DNA from: Syntrophobacter sp. SbD2
GTDB lineage: Bacteria > Desulfobacterota > Binatia > UBA9968
Direction: 5' to 3'
Assembly: GCA_945889495.1 (NCBI GenBank)
Contig: CAMDBU010000021.1
Location: 1 to 51,169, forward strand
Length of the DNA stretch: 51,169 nucleotides
A program made the translations under genes and the position numbers. Below, piece by piece: positions 37,443-51,169 of the stretch. Positions within the stretch are counted from its first letter, which is position 1; each line of letters opens with the position of its first letter. The notes below the pieces were generated by a model that saw only the letters and a list, made by a program, of their open reading frames with translations, was not told the DNA's origin and ran no database searches.

Positions 37443-38660
37443 ATGACGCTGCAAACACCCATATATCTCGACAATCACGCCACCACCGCAGTGGACCCGC
37501 GGGTTCTCGACGCCATGCTGCCCTACTTTAGCGAGCGTTTTGGCAATGCGGCGAGCAAAAGCCACGCGTTTGGCTGGGAGGCTGACGCGGCGGTGGATAC
37601 GGCGCGCCAGCAGGTCGCCAAGTTGATCGGCGCCGCTTCGCCGCGCGAGATCGTTTTTACCAGCGGCGCTACCGAATCGGATAATTTGGCGATCAAAGGA
37701 GTAGCCGAAGCGTACCGCGACAAGGGCAACCACATCATTACCTGCGTCACCGAGCACAAAGCGGTGCTCGATAGCTGCAAGGTGTTGGCCAAGCATGGCT
37801 GCGAGATTACTTATCTGCCGGTGGCGGCGGATGGTATGATCGACATGCAGCGTCTGCGCGGCGCGATCACCGAGAAGACTATTTTGCTCTCGATCATGGC
37901 GGCGAACAACGAGATCGGCACCATCCAACCGATCAAAGAGATCGGCCGCTTGGCCAAGGAAAAAAATATTCTGTTCCATAGCGACGCCACTCAAGGGGTC
38001 GGCAAGTTTCCCATCAACGTCGACGCCATGGGCATCGATCTGTTGTCCTTGACGGCGCATAAAATGTACGGCCCCAAGGGCAGCGGCGCGCTCTATGTGC
38101 GTGGCAACAAACCCAAGGTGAAATTGGCTTCAATGATCGACGGCGGCGGCCATGAGAATGGCATGCGCTCGGGCACCTTGAACGTGCCTGGCATCGTCGG
38201 CCTGGGCAAAGCCTGCGAGCTGTCGCAGCAGGAGATGAGCGGTGAAGCCGAGCGCTTGATCGCCCTGCGCGAGCGCTTGAAGGACGGCATTCTCAGCCAA
38301 CTCGATGACGTCCGGATCAACGGCCATGCCGAGCAGCGTTTGCCCGGCAACTTGAATCTGAGCTTTGCTTACATCGAGGGCGAATCGCTGTTGATGGGTT
38401 TAAAGGATATCGCCGTCTCCACCGGCTCGGCCTGCACGTCGGCGAGTCTGGAACCTTCTTATGTTTTGAAAGCGATCGGCTTGGCCGACGAGCTCGCCTA
38501 CAGCGCGATTCGCTTCGGCTTGGGGCGGTTCACCACTGAGGACGAGATCGATTACACGATTAAGCGGGTGGTCGAAGAGGTGAGCCGGCTGCGTGCGATG
38601 TCGCCAGTGTACAAAGCCAAGCAAGACAGGTCGCAGGCGGCCAACGGGAAGCGATCGTGA
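37443..38660 (+). CDS. iscS: cysteine desulfurase IscS-type
   Basis: A 405-residue PLP enzyme that takes sulfur from cysteine as a persulfide for Fe-S clusters and thio-modified tRNA. PLP is bound at Lys207 in SLTAHKMYG. The mobile catalytic Cys331 is in [17 protein letters not shown], the long-loop form of group I desulfurases. [10 protein letters not shown] and [11 protein letters not shown] are further markers. It starts the Fe-S locus and is followed after 40 bases by the A-type carrier. A second desulfurase lies 3 kb downstream; this one has the IscS/Nfs1-like C-terminal extension. Confidence 0.95.
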
Positions 38661-38700
38661 AAACTCTCAAGCCATTGGCGTTTTTGACAGGAGATAAATC

Positions 38701-39033
38701 ATGGCGATGGGCGTAAGTGTTACCGAGCGGGCAGCGGCGCGAATCAAAGAGTTGGCGGCGGCCAGCGAGAACCGCGAAGGCCAAGGGCTGCGCGTCAAAG
38801 TCGTCGGCGGCGGCTGTTCGGGGCTGCAATACAAAGTCGATCTGGACATGCCCAAGGGCACGGACAAGATTTTCGAAAAGGACGGCGCCAAGGTGTTGGT
38901 CGATATGAAGAGCTTGCTGTACTTGACCGGCACCGAGCTCGACTATAAGGACGAGCTCATGCAGTCGGGCTTTGTCTTCCAAAACCCCAACGTTAAAAAA
39001 GCCTGCGGCTGCGGCGCGTCGTTCACGGTCTGA
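38701..39033 (+). CDS. A-type iron-sulfur carrier (IscA/SufA/ErpA)
   Basis: A 110-residue A-type carrier with the three conserved cysteines: Cys39 in [11 protein letters not shown] and the C-terminal ACGCGASF (Cys102 and Cys104). It holds and transfers 2Fe-2S or 4Fe-4S clusters. A clear AGGAG (38689-38693) precedes the ATG at 7 nt. It lies between the IscS-type desulfurase and SufB, which fits either the IscA or SufA label. Confidence 0.92.
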
Positions 39034-39050
39034 AAGCGAGTTTGAATTTT

Positions 39051-40504
<1,454 letters not shown>

Positions 40505-40505
<1 letters not shown>

Positions 40506-40590
40506 AGAGGTTGTCAGTTGCCAGTGGTCAGTTGGCAGTCCGGTCTTCGGATTTCACTGACAACCGACAACCGACAACTGACAACTAGAA
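40505..40590. repeat. GTTGTCAGTTG palindromic element in the sufB-desulfurase gap
   Basis: Left arm GTTGTCAGTTG (40510-40520) and exact reverse complement CAACTGACAAC (40575-40585) flank further variants CAGTTGCCAGTGGTCAGTTGG and CAACCGACAACCGAC. It fills almost the whole gap and abuts the start codon of the second desulfurase, whose upstream region thus has no Shine-Dalgarno. Confidence 0.85.
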
Positions 40591-40592
40591 AA

Positions 40593-41771
40593 ATGGAAAT
40601 CTACTTCGATAACAACGCCACCACTCGGGTGCTGCCGGAAGTCGCGGCGGGGATGTTGCCGTACTTGACCGAGTTTTACGGCAATCCGTCGAGCATCCAC
40701 CGCTTTGGCAGCGACGTCGGGCAAAAGATTTTAACCGCGCATGCTCAAGTGGCGGCGCTGCTCGGCGCCGCCGACCCAGTGGAGGTAATCTTCACCAGCT
40801 GCGGCACCGAGGGCGACAACGCGGCGATCCGCGGCATGCTCGAAGCGCGGCCCGACAAACGCCACATCGTCACCACCAAAGTGGAACATTCCGCCGTGTT
40901 GGGCCTATGCCAGCATCTGGAAAAAAAAGGTTATCGCGTGACCTGGCTCGGCGTCGATCAGGATGGCGCCCTCGACTTGGCCGAGTTAGCCGCGGCGTTG
41001 ACCGATGACACCGCGCTGGTGTCGATCATGTGGGCCAATAACGAGACCGGGGTGATTTTTCCCATTGAGAAAATCGCCGACCTGACCCGCGCCAAAGATA
41101 TTCCATTACATGTCGACGCGGTGCAGGTGGCGGGCAAGTTGCCGATTAACTTGAGCGCGCTGCCGGTGGATTTGCTGACCATCTCGGCGCATAAATTTCA
41201 CGGCCCCAAGGGGGTCGGCGCGCTTTATGTGCGGCGCGGCATCACCTTTCCGCCGTTTCTAATCGGCGGCCATCAGGAGCGCAATCGCCGCGCCGGCACG
41301 GAAAATGTCGCCGGCATCGTCGGCATGGGCTTAGCGGCTGAGATCGCGCTTGGCCGTATCGCCGAGGACAGTGCCCACGAGCGCAAGCTGCGCGATCGCT
41401 TGCAGGCGCTGTTGCTCGCTTCCTGTCCCGACAGCCGGGTCAATGGCGCTAACCAAGCGCGCTTGCCCAACACGCTTAACATCAGTTTTCGTTATCTCGA
41501 AGGCGAGTCGATGCTGGTTCTTCTAGACCAGCAGGGGATTTGCGCTTCCACTGGTTCGGCATGCACGGCGGGCTCGGCCGAGCCTTCTCATGTTTTGCGC
41601 GCCATGAATGTGCCGGCAGATTGGTTGCAGGGCGCGGTGCGTTTTAGTTTGAGCCGATTTAATACCGATGCCGAAGTCGATTACGTGAACGAAAAGTTGC
41701 CGGCCATCGTCCAACGCTTACAAGGGCTTTCGGGTCTTGGGCGCTTGGGCCGCGCCGCCGGGGCGCGTTAG
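40593..41771 (+). CDS. cysteine desulfurase NifS-type, second copy
   Basis: A 392-residue PLP cysteine desulfurase. PLP Lys201 is in TISAHKFHGPKG, and catalytic Cys324 in STGSACTAGSAEPSHVL. It begins at ATG 40593 (MEIYFDNNATTRVLP); a longer reading from 40518 would translate the palindromic repeat. It is closer to NifS/group I members found beside nifU than to the IscS copy. Two desulfurases in one cluster suggest different acceptors. No typical ribosome binding site precedes it, since the repeat occupies that position. Confidence 0.93.
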   Translation: MEIYFDNNATTRVLPEVAAGMLPYLTEFYGNPSSIHRFGSDVGQKILTAHAQVAALLGAADPVEVIFTSCGTEGDNAAIRGMLEARPDKRHIVTTKVEHSAVLGLCQHLEKKGYRVTWLGVDQDGALDLAELAAALTDDTALVSIMWANNETGVIFPIEKIADLTRAKDIPLHVDAVQVAGKLPINLSALPVDLLTISAHKFHGPKGVGALYVRRGITFPPFLIGGHQERNRRAGTENVAGIVGMGLAAEIALGRIAEDSAHERKLRDRLQALLLASCPDSRVNGANQARLPNTLNISFRYLEGESMLVLLDQQGICASTGSACTAGSAEPSHVLRAMNVPADWLQGAVRFSLSRFNTDAEVDYVNEKLPAIVQRLQGLSGLGRLGRAAGAR

Positions 41772-41788
41772 TCGCGCGGGAGAAAACC

Positions 41789-42244
41789 ATGGGGCTCATG
41801 CAAATACCGCGGCGGGTCGATTACGGGTTACGGGCGGTGATTTATCTGTCCGGCCAAGATCCGGAGAAATGTTGCTCCATGGCGGAAATCGCCACTCGGC
41901 AGGGCGTGCCGCGCAAGTTTTTGGAAAAGATCATTCAAGATTTGATCCGCGCCGGTTTGATCAAATCCAAGCGCGGTTCCTGCGGTGGCTATGCGCTGGC
42001 GCGCTCGGCGGAAGAGATCTCGTTCAGCGACGTGATCGAGGCGATCGAAGGACCGATCGCGGTGAACTTATGTTTAGACGACCACCTGGGCTGCGATCAG
42101 ATGCCGCACTGCACCATGATCGGTGTGTGGAGCGAGGTGCAGCAAAAAATCAACCAGGTGCTTAGCGGGACGACCATCGCCGGCTTGCGCCGGTCGCCTT
42201 GCCGAGAATTTATTGGCTCCTCTTCGCTTTCGAGCGCGGCGTAA
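41789..42244 (+). CDS. Rrf2 family Fe-S-responsive regulator (IscR-like)
   Basis: A 151-residue winged-helix regulator. YGLRAVIYLSGQ and IATRQGVPRKFLEKIIQDL are typical Rrf2 DNA-binding segments. Three cysteines, Cys95, Cys102 and Cys108 (C-x6-C-x5-C in NLCLDDHLGCDQMPHC), match the cluster site of IscR (C-x5-C-x5-C) with one extra residue in the first spacer. It would sense Fe-S status and feed back on the genes upstream. It is the last gene of the locus, an unusual position. Confidence 0.88.
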   Translation: MGLMQIPRRVDYGLRAVIYLSGQDPEKCCSMAEIATRQGVPRKFLEKIIQDLIRAGLIKSKRGSCGGYALARSAEEISFSDVIEAIEGPIAVNLCLDDHLGCDQMPHCTMIGVWSEVQQKINQVLSGTTIAGLRRSPCREFIGSSSLSSAA

Positions 42245-42308
42245 GCGGGATGAACGGCGATTCGTTTCAACTCGGCTCCACGCCCCACCCAAACGAGAGG
42301 TGGTTTAC

Positions 42309-42767
42309 ATGGCTTACGAGAATGGACTGACTATGGAAGAGCGGGTGACTTCGCTATTTCAGCCGGACACATTGTTGCCGGATCAATTTCTCGACACCTT
42401 CCGGCGCAAGCTGCACCTGGAGCCGGAGAAAAAACTCATGCTGGCGATTCTCGAAGACGCCGTGGCGTGCTTCCAGAAATATCTCACGGCGCGCGACAGC
42501 AAGGGCAAAGCGCAGTTTCGCGACACCGACGAGTGGATTTTTCGCGGCGGCGATTCGGGAGTTTTTTCTTTTGACCTGGTGTGCGAGACCTTGGGCTTGG
42601 AGCCCAACTATCTGCGCCGCGGGCTGGCCCAGTGGAAAAAGCAGCGGCTCGCCCAGACGGCGCCGGCGCAAGTGATCGCGCTACGGCCGCCACGCGATAA
42701 GCCGCGCCGGGGCGCGGCCCATTCCGGCCGGCCCAAAGCGCGGCTGCGCCGAGCGGCGCGGCGCTGA
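42309..42767 (+). CDS. conserved hypothetical protein, possible DNA-binding fold
   Basis: A 153-residue protein. ATG 42309 is preferred: GAGAGGTGG precedes it, and the longer frame upstream has no conserved features. The segment EKKLMLAILEDAVACFQKY and the pair DEWIF then FSFDLVCETLGLEPNYLRRGL recur in deltaproteobacterial proteins I know only as hypothetical. The second is compatible with a helix-turn-helix. The Arg-rich C-terminus (RPPRDKPRRGAAHSGRPKAR) suggests nucleic acid contact. Role unknown. It follows the Rrf2 gene by 64 bases. Confidence 0.75.
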   Translation: MAYENGLTMEERVTSLFQPDTLLPDQFLDTFRRKLHLEPEKKLMLAILEDAVACFQKYLTARDSKGKAQFRDTDEWIFRGGDSGVFSFDLVCETLGLEPNYLRRGLAQWKKQRLAQTAPAQVIALRPPRDKPRRGAAHSGRPKARLRRAARR

Positions 42768-42773
42768 TCCGCT

Positions 42774-42837
42774 TTTTCAACGCAATCCAACCGCGCGCCG
42801 GTCGCGTTGCTGTTAGCTTCGGCGCGCGCTTGAAAAG
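42774..42837. repeat. inverted repeat between hypothetical gene and acyltransferase
   Basis: GCGCGCCG (42793-42800) pairs with CGGCGCGC (42820-42827), and TTTTTCAA pairs loosely with TTGAAAA further out. The two pairs are not perfectly concentric. It may be a transcription terminator-like stem. Confidence 0.4.
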
Positions 42838-42864
42838 CCCGCCAAACGACTTCATAAATCATCT

Positions 42865-43896
42865 ATGGCTAGGTTGAAGCGGCGGCGTTCGCCGGTGGGA
42901 CAATTTTTTTACGATCTGCGTTATCGCGTCGGTGAATTTGCCCTGCGCGGTTTCGTTAAGTGGCTGCCCTACGTTCCTTTCGTCATCGTCGATCGCTTCA
43001 CCGCCCTGGTCAGTTGGCTCGCTTTCCAGTTGATGTCGCCCTACCGCCGGCGCATGGAAGAAAACATCGCCCTGACCCTGAGCGAGGAAATTCCCAGTGT
43101 AGCGCAGCGCAAAGATTTGGTCTGGCGCGCCTGGAAAAACTTCGCCCGCGGCGTGCTCGATACCACGGCGGTCATGCACCATTCCAAGGCGCGCATCATC
43201 CAGGATGTGCGCCTGATCGGCGAGGAACATTTGCAAAGCGCCCTGGCCAAGGGCAAAGGGGTGCTCGCGCTGAGCGCCCATCTGGGTAGCTTTACCATGA
43301 TCGGCGCGCGCCTGGCGGCGGCCGGTTATCCCTTCAGCGTGATCGTCAAACATCCGGGCGATGAGCGGTTCGCCCGGCTCACCGACGATTACCGCGCCCA
43401 GGTTGGCATTCACACCATCCCAGCCAAGCCGCGCCGCGACGCCGTGCGCGGCTTGCTCAAAGCGCTACGCGACAATCGCATCGTGTTGGTGATCGCCGAT
43501 GAATTCAAATCCGGCGATGTGATGGTGGATTTTTTCGGCATACGATTGCCGGCGCCGCGCGGTCCGGCGACCTTGGCGCTGCGCACCGGTGCGGTGACCT
43601 TGCCGATGTTCGCCACCCGCGAGGCGGATGATTCATTATTGTTAACCGTCGGCGCGCCGATCGCGGCGGTGGAGGGCGAAGATCTCGAAGCCAGTGTGGT
43701 GGCGACCACGGCGGTTTACACGAGCGTCATCGAGGCGGCGATCCGGCGCTATCCCGATCAGTGGAATTGGCTCGGCCTGCCCAATCGCAACGGCAAGCTG
43801 TCGCGCGCGGAAATGGCTGTGGCGGTTAAAGAAGCGCGCCGCACGGCGGCGCAGAACGCCGATGCACCGAGAAAAACTGGCACCACCGGCGCCTAG
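42865..43896 (+). CDS. LpxL/HtrB-like lipid acyltransferase with altered HX4D/E motif
   Basis: A 343-residue member of the LpxL/LpxM/PatA acyltransferase family (lipid A secondary acylation or phosphoinositol acylation). An amphipathic N-terminal membrane segment, ENIALTLSEE, and the order RLIGEEHLQSAL, KGVLALSAHLGSF and RDNRIVLVIADEF fit. The catalytic HX4D/E motif reads HLGSFT, so the acidic residue is Thr144 after His139. The DNA reads CAT CTG GGT AGC TTT ACC, so this is not a translation ambiguity. Other motif residues (PAPRGPATLALRTGA) are kept. It may be inactive, or use another base. Complete length. Confidence 0.82.
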   Translation: MARLKRRRSPVGQFFYDLRYRVGEFALRGFVKWLPYVPFVIVDRFTALVSWLAFQLMSPYRRRMEENIALTLSEEIPSVAQRKDLVWRAWKNFARGVLDTTAVMHHSKARIIQDVRLIGEEHLQSALAKGKGVLALSAHLGSFTMIGARLAAAGYPFSVIVKHPGDERFARLTDDYRAQVGIHTIPAKPRRDAVRGLLKALRDNRIVLVIADEFKSGDVMVDFFGIRLPAPRGPATLALRTGAVTLPMFATREADDSLLLTVGAPIAAVEGEDLEASVVATTAVYTSVIEAAIRRYPDQWNWLGLPNRNGKLSRAEMAVAVKEARRTAAQNADAPRKTGTTGA

Positions 43897-44492
43897 AGCT
43901 TCGAATCGAATCCTGGATTCAATATTCCCTTGTGCTCGGTGGCTTCCAAATAGCGCATGAAGCGGTATTTATTCTCGATCTCGTCGAGTTTGAGCGGCGG
44001 TAGGTCCTTGGGCTGGCCGGGTTCGACTTTGACCGCGATCAAGCTCAGTTCGTTGCGCTGCCAGGCGGCGCGGAACTCAGCGCGAAATTCTTCCAGCGAG
44101 GTCACCCAGCGAGCCTGTTTATAGCCCGCGCCCTTGGCGATGACCACTGAATCGGTGCTGCGCGATGCCGTGGCGGTGCCGCCCGAGGCTTCGTAGATTT
44201 CGTTATCGAATAATAGATGAATGAGATTCCCCGGGCTCTGTTGGGCGATGGTCGGTAAGCCGCAGAGGTTCATGAGAAAGGCGCCGTCGCCGTCGATGGC
44301 GATCACTTTGCGCTCGGGCAGGGCGATCGCCAGGCCGGCGGCGATGGATGACACCAAGCCCAACGTGCGGGTTTTGAGATTGCCGTCGCCGGGGCGTACC
44401 GCCCACCATTCGCGCGAGCCCCAACCGGTGGATACCGCCAGGGCGTCCTGGGCATCCGCCGCGATCGCTTTTAGATAATCATAGCGTTGCAT
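43893..44492 (-). CDS. ThDP-dependent decarboxylase, beta subunit (ComE-like)
   Basis: A 199-residue ThDP-binding chain. The GDG...N motif is IDGDGAFLMNLCGLPTIAQQ followed by LLFDNEIYEASGG. LSSIAAGLAI-type contacts are in LGLVSSIAAGLAIALP. Half-length subunits like this are found in sulfopyruvate decarboxylase (ComE), phosphonopyruvate decarboxylase and benzaldehyde lyase-like enzymes. It overlaps its partner by one base (TAATG), so both are produced together. It overlaps the divergent acyltransferase gene end by 4 bases. Confidence 0.85.
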   Translation of the reverse strand: MQRYDYLKAIAADAQDALAVSTGWGSREWWAVRPGDGNLKTRTLGLVSSIAAGLAIALPERKVIAIDGDGAFLMNLCGLPTIAQQSPGNLIHLLFDNEIYEASGGTATASRSTDSVVIAKGAGYKQARWVTSLEEFRAEFRAAWQRNELSLIAVKVEPGQPKDLPPLKLDEIENKYRFMRYLEATEHKGILNPGFDSKL

Positions 44493-45004
44493 TATTTCAC
44501 TCCGAGGACGCTTTTGGTCAGCAGCACCGCCACCGGTTTTTTCGAATCGTCGGCGAGGATCTGCGCGCCGGCCAGGGTCTCGTCAATCTCCTCGGGCCGG
44601 CGCAGCACGTAGCTGCGAAAGCCCATGGCCTGCAACACCGGCTCGGTCACCGCGCCCAGGGTGGTAAAGCCGCGGTCGCCGATGTCGCCGGCGTAATAGA
44701 TCAACATCAAGATCGGAATCTGCAACTGCAATGACGTCGTCGTCAGCGCATTGCAGCTGTTTAAAAAACCGGCGTTCTGCATGATGATGGCGGTCTTTTT
44801 GCCAGCCAGGTAGGCGCCGGCGCAGATGCCGATGCCTTCTTCCTCGCGGCATAGCGGAACATGCTTTAGCTGCCGGTCGGCTTCGACGGCGCGGATCACT
44901 TCGAGCATTTTTTCATCCGGCAGGGTGGCGACGAAGTCGATGCCGGCCTTTTTCAAGCCGGCGACGATGGCCGCGCCGGCGGCGATGGGATCGATGGCGG
45001 TCAT
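44492..45004 (-). CDS. ThDP-dependent decarboxylase, alpha subunit (ComD-like)
   Basis: A 170-residue N-terminal ThDP domain. The catalytic Glu that activates the cofactor is in PLCREEEGIGICAGAYLAG. MQNAGFLNSCNALTTTSLQ is the conserved following segment. Two-subunit split is typical of sulfopyruvate and phosphonopyruvate decarboxylases. There is no adjacent coenzyme M or phosphonate gene, so the substrate is open. Its stop overlaps the beta start by one base. Confidence 0.85.
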   Translation of the reverse strand: MTAIDPIAAGAAIVAGLKKAGIDFVATLPDEKMLEVIRAVEADRQLKHVPLCREEEGIGICAGAYLAGKKTAIIMQNAGFLNSCNALTTTSLQLQIPILMLIYYAGDIGDRGFTTLGAVTEPVLQAMGFRSYVLRRPEEIDETLAGAQILADDSKKPVAVLLTKSVLGVK

Positions 45005-45152
45005 AGGTTTCCTAAGAGTTTAGCTGCGCCCACGGTTTGCTTTTCGGCTTGGACTATCGCTACTGTGAATTCCATGACGATGTCAAGGCGGAGGCTGGCC
45101 ATCGCGCTCTTGACAGAAGAACGACAAAGTTTGTAGTGATGAATCACCACCC

Positions 45153-45539
45153 ATGAACGAAAAAGAAGTCAAAGTCAGCAAACAGCATGTCTGGGTCGGC
45201 GGCGAAGACCGGCATGTTCACCTAGGAATTACCAATTACATTCAAGGCGCGTTGGGTTCGGTGTTGTCGGTGGAGCTGCCCGACGTCGGCGATACCATCG
45301 AAGCGGGCGAGATTTTCGCCGAGATCGAGTCGGCCTCCACCGTGCACGAGCTGGTCGCGCCGGTCACCGGCAAGGTGATGGCGGTCAATTCGTTATTGGA
45401 AGATCACCCGGCGATCATCAACGAAGATCCCTACAGTGAAGGCTGGCTCATCGAAGTACGCCTGAAAAGCGAAGATGAGTTGGACGCCTTGATGGACATG
45501 GACGAGTACTACCACTTCGTTTTCAAAGATAAATCCTGA
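45153..45539 (+). CDS. GcvH-like protein lacking the lipoyl lysine
   Basis: A 128-residue protein with the GcvH fold: HVWVGGEDRHVHLGITNYI, LPDVGDTIEAGEIFAEIES and INEDPYSEGWLIEVRL align over full length. In true GcvH the segment ESVKAVS carries the lipoylated lysine. Here it is E-S-A-S-T-V-H, with Ser62 (codon TCC, 45336-45338) at the lysine position and no lysine in the loop. So it cannot carry lipoate in the usual way. No gcvT or gcvP is nearby. It may be a structural or regulatory relative of GcvH. A TTGACA (45110-45115) lies upstream. It diverges from the ThDP pair. Confidence 0.85.
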   Translation: MNEKEVKVSKQHVWVGGEDRHVHLGITNYIQGALGSVLSVELPDVGDTIEAGEIFAEIESASTVHELVAPVTGKVMAVNSLLEDHPAIINEDPYSEGWLIEVRLKSEDELDALMDMDEYYHFVFKDKS

Positions 45540-45630
45540 GCCGCCGCCGGCGATTTGCAAAATCTTTCGCGTTTTCCGCCTGGTTCGTAGCGTTGGTTCG
45601 CGATGGCGCCAACGGCGGCCGAAGCGACAT

Positions 45631-45728
45631 TCGGAATATCTCGCGCCAAGCTCGCCAAGGCCGCAAAGGTCGGAAAGCGTTTTCTTTGCTCGGCGTCCTT
45701 TGCGTTCTTGGCGCGAGGAATATCCGAT
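45631..45728. repeat. CGCCAAGG palindromic element, copy 2
   Basis: Ends TCGGAATATCTCGCGCCAAG and CTTGGCGCGAGGAATATCCGA, with inner words GCCAAGGCCGCAAAGG and CCTTTGCG. It belongs to the same family as 22608-22718, including the terminal CGGAATAT. Confidence 0.85.
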
Positions 45729-45747
45729 TTCGGGGCAGTAACGATGA

Positions 45748-46110
45748 TCAGCGCTTGCTGCGTTGCTTGGGCGACGCTGGTTCGGGGGTATCGATGGCGG
45801 GCGGCTCGCGGCGCGCTTCGGCCTTGGAAAAGCGGTAGATCACTTCGCCGGGCCGGGCCATGTTGAGTTCCTCGCGGGCGAGTTTTTCCAGATAGTAGTT
45901 ATCATGGCGCACCCGGGCGATTTTCTGGCGCAGGGCTTCGTTATCGCGCTGCATTCGATAGTTAGTTTCGTCGATGCGGATTTTCTCACCGCGCAGGCGC
46001 CAGAGATGGAGCGCGCCCCGTTCGCCAACGATGGTGACCAGCGAGAGCAGGAGAATCAACGAGCCTAGTAGATAGAGCGGCCAGCGCGGCGATAAGTGCG
46101 GAAGCGTCAT
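45748..46110 (-). CDS. ftsB: FtsB/DivIC-type septum formation protein
   Basis: A 120-residue single-pass inner-membrane protein. Residues 12-32 form the membrane helix (LYLLGSLILLLSLVTIVG). A coiled coil follows (EKIRIDETNYRMQRDNEALRQ), and LAREELNMARPGEVIYRF is the FtsB/DivIC signature. It would join FtsL and FtsQ in the divisome. ATG 46110 is chosen; the longer frame upstream only overlaps enolase. It is divergent from eno across about 70 bases, a conserved neighbourhood in many bacteria. Confidence 0.88.
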   Translation of the reverse strand: MTLPHLSPRWPLYLLGSLILLLSLVTIVGERGALHLWRLRGEKIRIDETNYRMQRDNEALRQKIARVRHDNYYLEKLAREELNMARPGEVIYRFSKAEARREPPAIDTPEPASPKQRSKR

Positions 46111-48184
<2,074 letters not shown>

Positions 48185-48188
48185 CGGC

Positions 48189-50153
48189 TCATGGCACCGA
48201 CGGCTGGGGCCAATGTTGGAATTCGTGACCGCCGTCGTGGTCGGCGGCTTTGCGCACTGCTCCCATCGGCGGCGGCTTGGGCAAACCAACCGACGAGCGC
48301 CGCGGCAGCGGTTTCCGAGTGGTTGGTTCCGGCGGTGACGAGAATCGATTGACGATGCCGGTGATTTTGAACGAGCTCATCGACTGGCGCAAACTTTCCG
48401 CCTGGGCCGACATTTGCGCGGCGGTGCTGGAGAGCTCCTCGGCGGCGGCGGCGTTGCGCTGGGTCACTTGATCGACTTCGTTCATGGCCTGGTTGACCTG
48501 TGAGACTCCTTCGGCTTGTTCTCTCGACGCAATGGCCACTTGCTGCACCAACTCGGCGGTTTTTCGGATCGATGGGACTAATCGTTTTAACAGCTCTCCC
48601 GATCGTTCGGCGACTCTAACGCTGGACGAGGTCAGTGAATTGATCTCTTGGGCGGCGTTCTGACTACGCTCGGCCAGTTTGCGAACCTCCGCGGCGACCA
48701 CGGCAAAGCCTTTGCCATGCTCGCCAGCCCTGGCAGCTTCGATGGCGGCGTTCAAGGCCAAAAGATTGGTCTGGTAGGCGATTTCCTCGATGATTGAGAT
48801 TTTCTCCGAGATCGATTGCATGGCGTCGACGCATTCCACCACCGAGTCGCTGCTCTCTTCCATCTCATGGGCGCCTTGCAGCGCCATGCTTTCGAGCTGC
48901 TTGCTAGCGTTGGCGTTGTGCGTGATCGAGGTGTGCATTTGTTCGAGACTCGAAGTGGTCTCTTGTACCGCAGCGGCCTGCGCTTGGGCGCCATGGGACA
49001 TCTGTCCCGCCGCGGCGGCAACTTGGTGCGATGCCGAGGCGATCAGCGTACCCGAGTTGGCGACATGGCTGATCGTTTCGCCCAATATTTTAATGGTCCG
49101 ATTGACCGCCGTGGCGATTTGCCCCAATTCGCCGCGGTCGTCGGTGGCAATGGTTGCGGTAAAATCCCCTTTGGCGATGCCATCAAGGGCTTGGATCACC
49201 AGTGCCAGCGGTTTAAAGCGCCGCGACACTAGCAGCGAAATGAAAATCACCGCGACAATCAGCGCCGCTGCCGTGAGAACCAACAGCAACGCCATGGTGC
49301 GATCGACGAATTGAATCGATTTACTGACATCGCTGACTAGAACCATGTAGCCCGCGACGGCGCCGGTTGGCGTTTTGAGTGGATGATAACTGGCCGCGAA
49401 GGCGGGTCCCGTGGTTTTGACAGTTTCTATCGTCATGCCGGCGCGCGCTGGCGCCGCCATGAGCGCCCGAAGGGTGGTAATGACTTCCTTGGTGGTTTCA
49501 CCAAAGAGCGCCATTCCTCGCAACGCGGTCGCATTCGCCGGCCCCGGCGCGGCCACCAGCAGCGCGCCTTGGGCGTTGAGCGTTTGGGCGAAATCCTGCA
49601 CCAAGTTGCGATATGAGATGCCCGCTTGAACCGCGCCGATGAGCTCGCCGTTGCGGTAAATCGGTTGCACCACCATGAGCGTCGGTTCGCCGCCGATCAG
49701 TTCGATGCCGTTGGCCGATTGGTTATTTTGAATCGCGCTTTGCGCCGTTGGGCTCGCCATGGTCTGGAGCGTTTTTGGCAAAGCGATCAGCTGACTGGCC
49801 TTGGTGTCATGGTACGCCAAATAGCTCAGTCCGGCCTGACTGCTGAGCCGATTGAAAGGCCCTTGGACTCGGTCCAATAAGTCGTCGCGCTTGCCGGTGG
49901 CGAGCGCCTCTTGAATCTCCTGCGGGCGCAGGAATCCATCCATGATTTTGGTCAGTTCCTTGATCCGGCCCTGCTTCAATCCGTCAAGCACCTTGGCTTG
50001 GGTTTCGAGCATCTGGCGCTCGGCTTCGGCGAAGATTTGCCGTTGTCCCCAGATTCCCAGGCCGCCGCTGAGCAGCGCCACCGCGATCAGCGTTGCCGCG
50101 GTGGCCAGGATTACCGTTCCCCGCAGCGAGTTGGTCCAAGCGCGTAGATTCAT
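48189..50153 (-). CDS. methyl-accepting chemotaxis protein
   Basis: A 654-residue transmembrane chemoreceptor. Membrane helix 1 is at about 13-35. Residues 40-280 form a periplasmic ligand domain, with a Cache-type segment ([18 protein letters not shown]). Helix 2 lies at about 286-309 and a HAMP domain at 310-362. The signalling tip is [20 protein letters not shown] (455-474), followed by [20 protein letters not shown]. The C-terminal tail is Pro-rich and ends without the classical methylation-recruiting pentapeptide. It senses an unknown small molecule and signals through CheA/CheW, not in this window. Confidence 0.93.
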
Positions 50154-50167
50154 CTTGTCACCCCAAG

Positions 50168-50638
50168 CTATTTTCTCTCGATCGGAAAGCCCTTTTGTTC
50201 CCAGTCCGGGATTCCCGCGGTATAGACTGACAGGTCTTTATATCCCCAGGAGAGCGCCAGCTTGGCGCCGTTGAGACTGCGCACGCACTTGGGGTAGCCG
50301 TTGCAATAAAAGATGATCGGGTGATTTTTGTCAGCGGGAAATTTGGCTTTATGCGCCTCCATGTCCTTATCGACTACGTTGATGGCGCGGGGAATATGAC
50401 CTTCCTTGAATTCCTGGGTCACCCGCGAATCGACCAGCAGCAGCGGCGCCCGGCTATCGATTAGCTTCTTGAGCTGGTCGGTGGTGACGATTTTGATTTC
50501 TTTGGGGATCGGCGGCGCGTCGTCGGCAAACGCCGGCCCGACTAGCAACCATAGTGCTACGCCGAGCACTGCCAAGCTTTGGAGCTTGCGCCGCCCTTTC
50601 CGCCCGACGGCCGTTTCACCGGATAAGTTTTGTGTCAT
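50168..50638 (-). CDS. periplasmic rhodanese-domain protein
   Basis: A secreted single-domain rhodanese. A signal peptide ends near GPAFA (two residues earlier if the start at 50644 is used). The rhodanese core is [20 protein letters not shown]. The active-site loop is [13 protein letters not shown] with Cys114 as nucleophile and a second Cys120. It would transfer sulfane sulfur in the periplasm. ATG 50638 is 7 nt after GGAGG; ATG 50644 lies only 1 nt after it. It follows the chemoreceptor's start with a 15-base gap, and may be co-transcribed with it. Confidence 0.87.
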
Positions 50639-51091
50639 GTTCATCCCTCCGTTTGCTTTAAGCTGTTTTGGTTCACGGTTGGTGTGCCCAACGCCGACGC
50701 ACGCTTACTCTCTGTAGCAATCGGCCGCCTCATGCCGCGCTTTAGAAGCCGAGCGGCGATTAACCACCGCCAGATCGATATTACCGGTCCACGCAAACTG
50801 CGCATTGATCCATGGAGGGTCGGTCAAATCCGGGGCTAGGTTCATCGCCATTATTTTCGGCACGCTGCCACTGTTCATCGGTTTATTCGACTATCGTTGA
50901 GGACAGTGGAGCAAAGTCATGACCAATTCCATTCCAGCTCTGGAATCGGTACAAACTTGTCACTCGCGCCACCCTAATGAGATTTAGCCTGGTGGGTTTG
51001 CTCCCTAAATGGCACTGGTGCTCTAGCAGCCCGTGGTAGAAGTCCGATTTTCACAAAACGCTAGGCATCAGTGCGAGGCGGTGACGAGAGA
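50639..51091. other. gene-free region of about 450 bp
   Basis: A short frame at 50630-50839 has no recognisable conserved pattern or ribosome binding site. I see no RNA gene, hairpin or word repeat of the kinds found elsewhere. Confidence 0.45.
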
Positions 51092-51169
51092 TCATAAATA
51101 TTCTCCGATCGAGTCCTCGGCGCCGATGAGCAGCGACTTGGTCACGTAGTCGCACCCACAGAGCAAAAC
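51092..51169 (-). CDS. 3' end of a partial gene at the window edge
   Basis: Read on the minus strand, the last 78 bases give VLLCGCDYVTKSLLIGAEDS then IGEYL and a TGA at 51094-51092, with codon bias like a real gene. The LxxGxDY...GA pattern recalls the end of a TIM-barrel synthase (DapA-like), but such enzymes continue beyond this point, so it could instead be another family or a truncated gene. Too short to identify. Confidence 0.3.
   Translation of the reverse strand, partial: VLLCGCDYVTKSLLIGAEDSIGEYL

Follow-up and report, generated by a model that had tools for sequence, protein, structure and literature searches.

The LbpA proteins are lipoate-binding paralogues of the glycine cleavage H protein (GcvH) that serve sHdr sulfur oxidation and not glycine cleavage; they are lipoylated on a conserved lysine, have two conserved cysteines and are encoded in shdr clusters (eLife 37439, PMC6067878; PMC10332631). 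The chlamydial GcvH-like protein (TIGR03077, not_gcvH), the family NF045810 and the Streptococcus GcvH-L protein (5a35) are likewise GcvH-fold paralogues outside glycine cleavage. Among eukaryotic proteins, Simiate/ABITRAM is, in its authors' proposal, a descendant of GcvH whose function is unrelated (PMC3859600), and BADC of plant acetyl-CoA carboxylase resembles a carrier protein, does not become biotinylated and helps or regulates assembly (PMC11926652). In the canonical H protein of E. coli, residues E12, E14, S67, D68 and Y70 handle the aminomethyl-lipoate arm (PMC7733448). The current report concerns an orphan GcvH paralogue, GcvH2, encoded in a 51,169-nucleotide stretch of Syntrophobacter sp. 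SbD2 DNA that we refer to as the "window".

A GcvH homologue without the lipoyl lysine

The gene gcvH2 (Table 1) was described in a first-pass annotation as an intact homologue of gcvH in which a TCC codon for Ser replaces that of the lipoylated lysine, and our results bear out this description in each of its parts. The predicted protein matches the Pfam model GCV_H (PF01597) over residues 7-123 (E 3.5e-33, 114.5 bits against a gathering cut-off of 22.2) and scores 117.9 bits with TIGR00527 (gcvH), just above the cut-off of 115.85. Its length, its turn glycines and the motif NEDPY.GW are common to GcvH2 and GcvH. In an alignment with solved H proteins, Ser62 stands opposite the lipoyl lysine (ESASTVHELVAPV in GcvH2 and ESVKAVSDIYAPV in the canonical protein of the same genome), so that the residue required of a functional glycine cleavage H protein is absent. 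Profile and fold place GcvH2 in the GcvH homology family, yet the features that define a functional H protein are lacking.

Table 1. Positions in the window of gcvH2, its neighbors and the codons discussed in the text
Feature	Position	Strand	Remarks
comE-like	43893..44492	-	sulfopyruvate/phosphonopyruvate decarboxylase beta-like TPP subunit
comD-like	44492..45004	-	sulfopyruvate decarboxylase alpha-like TPP subunit; divergent; upstream neighbor conserved only in the family
gcvH2	45153..45539	+	GcvH paralogue, 128 aa, ATG start, intact reading frame; Ser62 at the lipoyl-lysine position
Val13 codon	45189..45191	+	replaces the cavity glutamate E14 (E. coli numbering)
TCC codon of Ser62	45336..45338	+	opposite K64, the lipoylated lysine of E. 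coli GcvH
LMDMDEYYHFV	45489..45521	+	C-terminal helix segment, codons 113-123; helix in the predicted model
ftsB/DivIC-like	45748..46434	-	ORF as listed, start probably near 46100; class-wide gcvH2 neighbor
enolase (eno)	46180..47466	+	class-wide gcvH2 neighbor

The genome encodes a second gcvH, which is canonical, has the lysine and lies directly between gcvT and gcvP on another contig (C35); its product is 43% identical to GcvH2. The presence of this gcvT-gcvH-gcvP set means that glycine cleavage needs no carrier from the window gene, which is neither linked to gcvT or gcvP nor the source of the genome's only H protein. As the first-pass annotation had stated, neither gcvT nor gcvP is nearby (none was seen in the inspected part of the window, positions 38000-51169), and GcvH2 is not a normal glycine cleavage carrier, as judged from Ser62, the replaced cavity residues described below and a locus outside the gcv operon. 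The suggestion of a promoter fared less well, in that a strict sigma-70 scan upstream of gcvH2 was negative and inspection by eye gave a weak match (TTGACA at 45110-45115, 16 nt, TGTAGT).

GcvH2 shares full-length homology and the fold (Z 23) with GcvH (PF01597, TIGR00527), but differs from it in the missing lipoyl lysine, the replacement of E14 and Y70, the orphan locus and its position in a separate clade. It is like LbpA in being a GcvH paralogue outside glycine cleavage; unlike LbpA, it has no Lys62 in the window's family, no cysteine in the window protein and no shdr genes as neighbors, and with all three of these LbpA features missing an identity with LbpA was rejected. The models TIGR03077 (73.0 bits against a cut-off of 144.05) and NF045810 (GcvH-related; 42.6 bits against 150) were rejected as well, and Streptococcus GcvH-L is distant (21% identity). 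Simiate/ABITRAM, with about 20% identity to the H protein and a distribution limited to eukaryotes, can be set beside GcvH2 by description only. The resemblance to BADC, a carrier-domain look-alike that acts without the modified lysine as a non-catalytic subunit, would be a likeness of working only, since BADC belongs to the BCCP family, is eukaryotic and has a known partner; no shared membership is claimed. In the literature searched, which was confined to papers available outside subscription, we found no description of a lysine-less GcvH. GcvH2 is a new variant within the known GcvH family.

Inheritance of the locus and states of residue 62

Intact copies of gcvH2 were found in 18 of the 25 genomes of the window's family, the window's own and all four of the same genus included, and one further copy is cut by a contig end; the family orthologues are 59-78% identical to the window protein. 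In every genome of the class examined except G121, gcvH2 precedes ftsB on the same side, in the arrangement gcvH2-(pcm)-ftsB, with pcm often between the two and eno mostly next. The existence of one conserved locus throughout the class reflects vertical inheritance of gcvH2 and not horizontal transfer. The conserved neighbors (ftsB, eno, pcm and nrdJ) have no clear functional link to it and may represent plain synteny.

Coupling of gcvH2 to individual neighbors was considered and rejected. The divergent pair of TPP genes is not a neighbor of gcvH2 in other families and stays in place in two genomes of genus g11 of the window's family where gcvH2 is a degraded relic (G014) or has been cleanly deleted (G020); nrdJ adjoins it upstream in three families only (f7, f8 and f10); and pcm persists in G020 after the deletion and is missing from the window locus and from those of some relatives. 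The decay and deletion in g11, the only genus of the family shown to be without an intact copy, indicate that gcvH2 is dispensable there. The apparent absence of the gene from G007, G018, G019 and G023 is uninformative, since the eno locus in these assemblies is interrupted at the end of a contig or was not found.

Some further observations were made on these neighborhoods. The product of pcm is a protein-L-isoaspartate methyltransferase that appears to have a signal sequence at its N terminus. The gene lies directly downstream of gcvH2 in many genomes of the class (loci L064, L066, L068, L070, L072, L081 and L082 among them) and sometimes overlaps its end; the window genome has one other homologue, on contig C2. 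The place of pcm in relatives is occupied in the window by an intergenic repeat (CGCCAAGnnCGCmAAGnnCGCAAAG, 45639-45668), of which the genome has 26 copies (none in a reversed control), several of them as inverted pairs ~47 bp apart, resembling a REP element. The gene for the decarboxylase alpha-like TPP subunit shows an unusual expansion in the family genomes G007, G014, G019 and G020, each of which has 7 to 13 matches.

Residue 62 is Ser in 10, Ala in five, Thr in two and Glu in one of the 18 sequences of the window's family, and Lys in none of them. Orthologues from the remaining families of the class have Lys (10 sequences), Arg (16), Asn (3), Gly (2), Thr (2) or Glu (1) there. The ten Lys-bearing members, some of which could still be lipoylated, are confined to two families, and Lys and Arg both occur within a single genus (G069, G068). 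The 52 GcvH2 sequences form a single clade distinct from canonical GcvH (UFBoot 100, SH-aLRT 96), in a tree that is drawn from only 119 columns and is uncertain in its inner order, and at least four changes of the Lys state are required on it. Position 62 is the fifth most variable of the 119 columns within the GcvH2 clade; the lipoyl lysine is invariant in all 34 canonical GcvH proteins of the class. Orphan relatives that have the lysine and do not adjoin gcv genes exist more widely in the phylum (e.g., ESSKTVSEI in G177), which suggests that the ancestor probably had Lys at this position. The lysine has been lost across the whole of the window's family and repeatedly within the class.

The first-pass annotation had named two circumstances that would undo its interpretation: homologues with Lys at the same locus, indicating a point mutation, or a sequencing error in the TCC codon. 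Homologues of the former kind do occur at the ftsB/eno locus in other families, and the lack of any in the window's own family points to a settled loss instead of a point mutation. A sequencing error is excluded because Ser is also found in the four nearest, independently assembled genomes of the same genus and is specified within the family by different codons (TCA, TCC, TCG and TCT); the chance of an error or of a private mutation is therefore negligible.

Outside the GcvH2 clade, one GcvH that the tree places with the canonical proteins (L146; G090 C29:137446-137799) has Thr in place of the lipoyl lysine (ESVTAETELYAP), which appears to have been lost independently in this other family. Two genomes of another class, G177 (L161) and G213, encode five to six GcvH homologues each, and no GcvP was found in G177.

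Selection, predicted fold and the former arm cavity

Selection on the gene, which the first-pass annotation had surmised, is evident as purifying selection from pN/pS values of 0.13-0.28 between diverged members of the family, at near-saturation of the synonymous sites. The residues of the C-terminal helix segment (Table 1) are identical in all 17 family sequences compared while their synonymous codons vary, and the constraint must thus act on the protein. Overlap with the start of pcm was rejected as a cause of the invariant C terminus, as loci that lack pcm show the same invariant helix. An AlphaFold2 model of the window protein, computed from an alignment that included four GcvH rows from outside the GcvH2 clade, predicts an intact H-protein fold (pLDDT 90.6) that superimposes on the bovine H protein (3klr) with a Z of 23.2 and an rmsd of 1.1 Å over 125 residues; the best Foldseek matches of the model are all H proteins. 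A signature for GcvH2 can be given as a hydrophobic residue between His12 and Trp14, E50, G52-E53, E57, T63-V64 and E66, to which the window's family adds the invariant helix.

The changes in GcvH2 extend to the cavity that receives the lipoyl arm in H proteins. At the positions of E14, S67, D68/E and Y70 the window protein has V13, H65, E66 and V68; of the four, only the acidic residue at D68 has been retained. The equivalent of E14 is Glu in all 34 canonical GcvH proteins of the class, and each of the 52 GcvH2 proteins, those retaining Lys included, has a hydrophobic residue, Thr or Tyr there; the equivalent of Y70 is aliphatic in most GcvH2 proteins and never aromatic, even in Lys-bearing members; and that of S67 varies. 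Around the lost lysine, a Glu at -3, an acid at +4 and two turn glycines are invariant or nearly so. These retained residues may be structural, or it may be that a lipoylation enzyme still recognizes GcvH2.

Possible roles of a non-carrier H protein

We consider it fairly probable that GcvH2, an orphan GcvH paralogue passed on vertically, is no longer a lipoate carrier and has been kept as a non-carrier protein of the H fold acting by protein contact. Such contacts might be made through the C-terminal helix and an acidic face around the hairpin. By analogy to the relationship of BADC to BCCP, the protein would be a pseudo-carrier, a subunit with a structural or regulatory task that fills or bridges the site of a carrier domain, with the machinery of glycine cleavage or lipoylation as one candidate partner among others. 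A more tentative proposal, to which we give somewhat less than an even chance, is that GcvH2 shed lipoate in several lineages and now works on its own as an adaptor or regulator whose partner has no relation to glycine cleavage.

The main rival to the pseudo-carrier interpretation, or else a sub-case of it, is that GcvH2 competes with canonical GcvH for GcvP, GcvT, Lpd, LipB or LipA and so damps or tunes the system. Its predicted overall fold is identical to that of H proteins, among them the ones whose structures were solved together with T protein, LplA and LIAS, the residues flanking the lost lysine have been retained, and GcvP is present in all but one of the 16 GcvH2-bearing genomes of the class that were tested; however, the arm-handling cavity residues of the H-T interaction (E14, S67 and Y70) are changed and gcvH2 was outside the gcv operon at every locus examined. 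The one exceptional genome (G047, a 99% complete MAG of 630 contigs), in which a GcvH2 with Arg was found and neither GcvP nor a canonical GcvH, adds a weak argument in the same direction, and on balance we regard such competition as rather unlikely. Less probable again is the binding of a small molecule or peptide in a former arm cavity lined with hydrophobic residues; the conserved hydrophobic replacement of E14 and the aliphatic residues at Tyr70 in most GcvH2 proteins would be in keeping with it, but no neighboring gene points to a ligand.

A relict paralogue in slow decay and with no present function might be expected to have lost its lysine and cavity, and the relic and the deletion in genus g11 could be taken as signs of such decay. 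This interpretation is already weakened by the low pN/pS values between diverged species and by the helix that is invariant in spite of synonymous codon change, and the 18 intact family genomes stand against only two assembled loci with decay or deletion; we consider it improbable, more so than ligand binding. The first-pass annotation had also raised the idea of a carrier of something else, and attachment of a phosphopantetheine-like group to a Ser is conceivable in principle. The residue evolves rapidly, with Thr in two and Glu in one of the 18 family members, and its replacement by Ala in five of them rules out a substitute attachment at position 62 as a trait of the family, leaving this idea very little probability.

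The non-carrier interpretation of GcvH2 has consequences for genome annotation as well as for the biology of these proteins. Because GcvH2 passes the TIGR00527 cut-off, annotation pipelines would call it "GcvH", and metabolic reconstructions could count it among the lipoyl carriers. The family is a clear example from nature of a swinging-arm carrier that has lost its arm and has yet been kept, and the occurrence of Lys, Arg and lysine-less orthologues at one syntenic locus makes it possible to place the loss on a tree and to test it. If the adaptor or regulator proposal is true, bacteria can recruit the H-protein fold for a function that needs no cofactor, and the GcvH2 family would offer a ready test of such lipoate-free function, parallel to BADC in plants.
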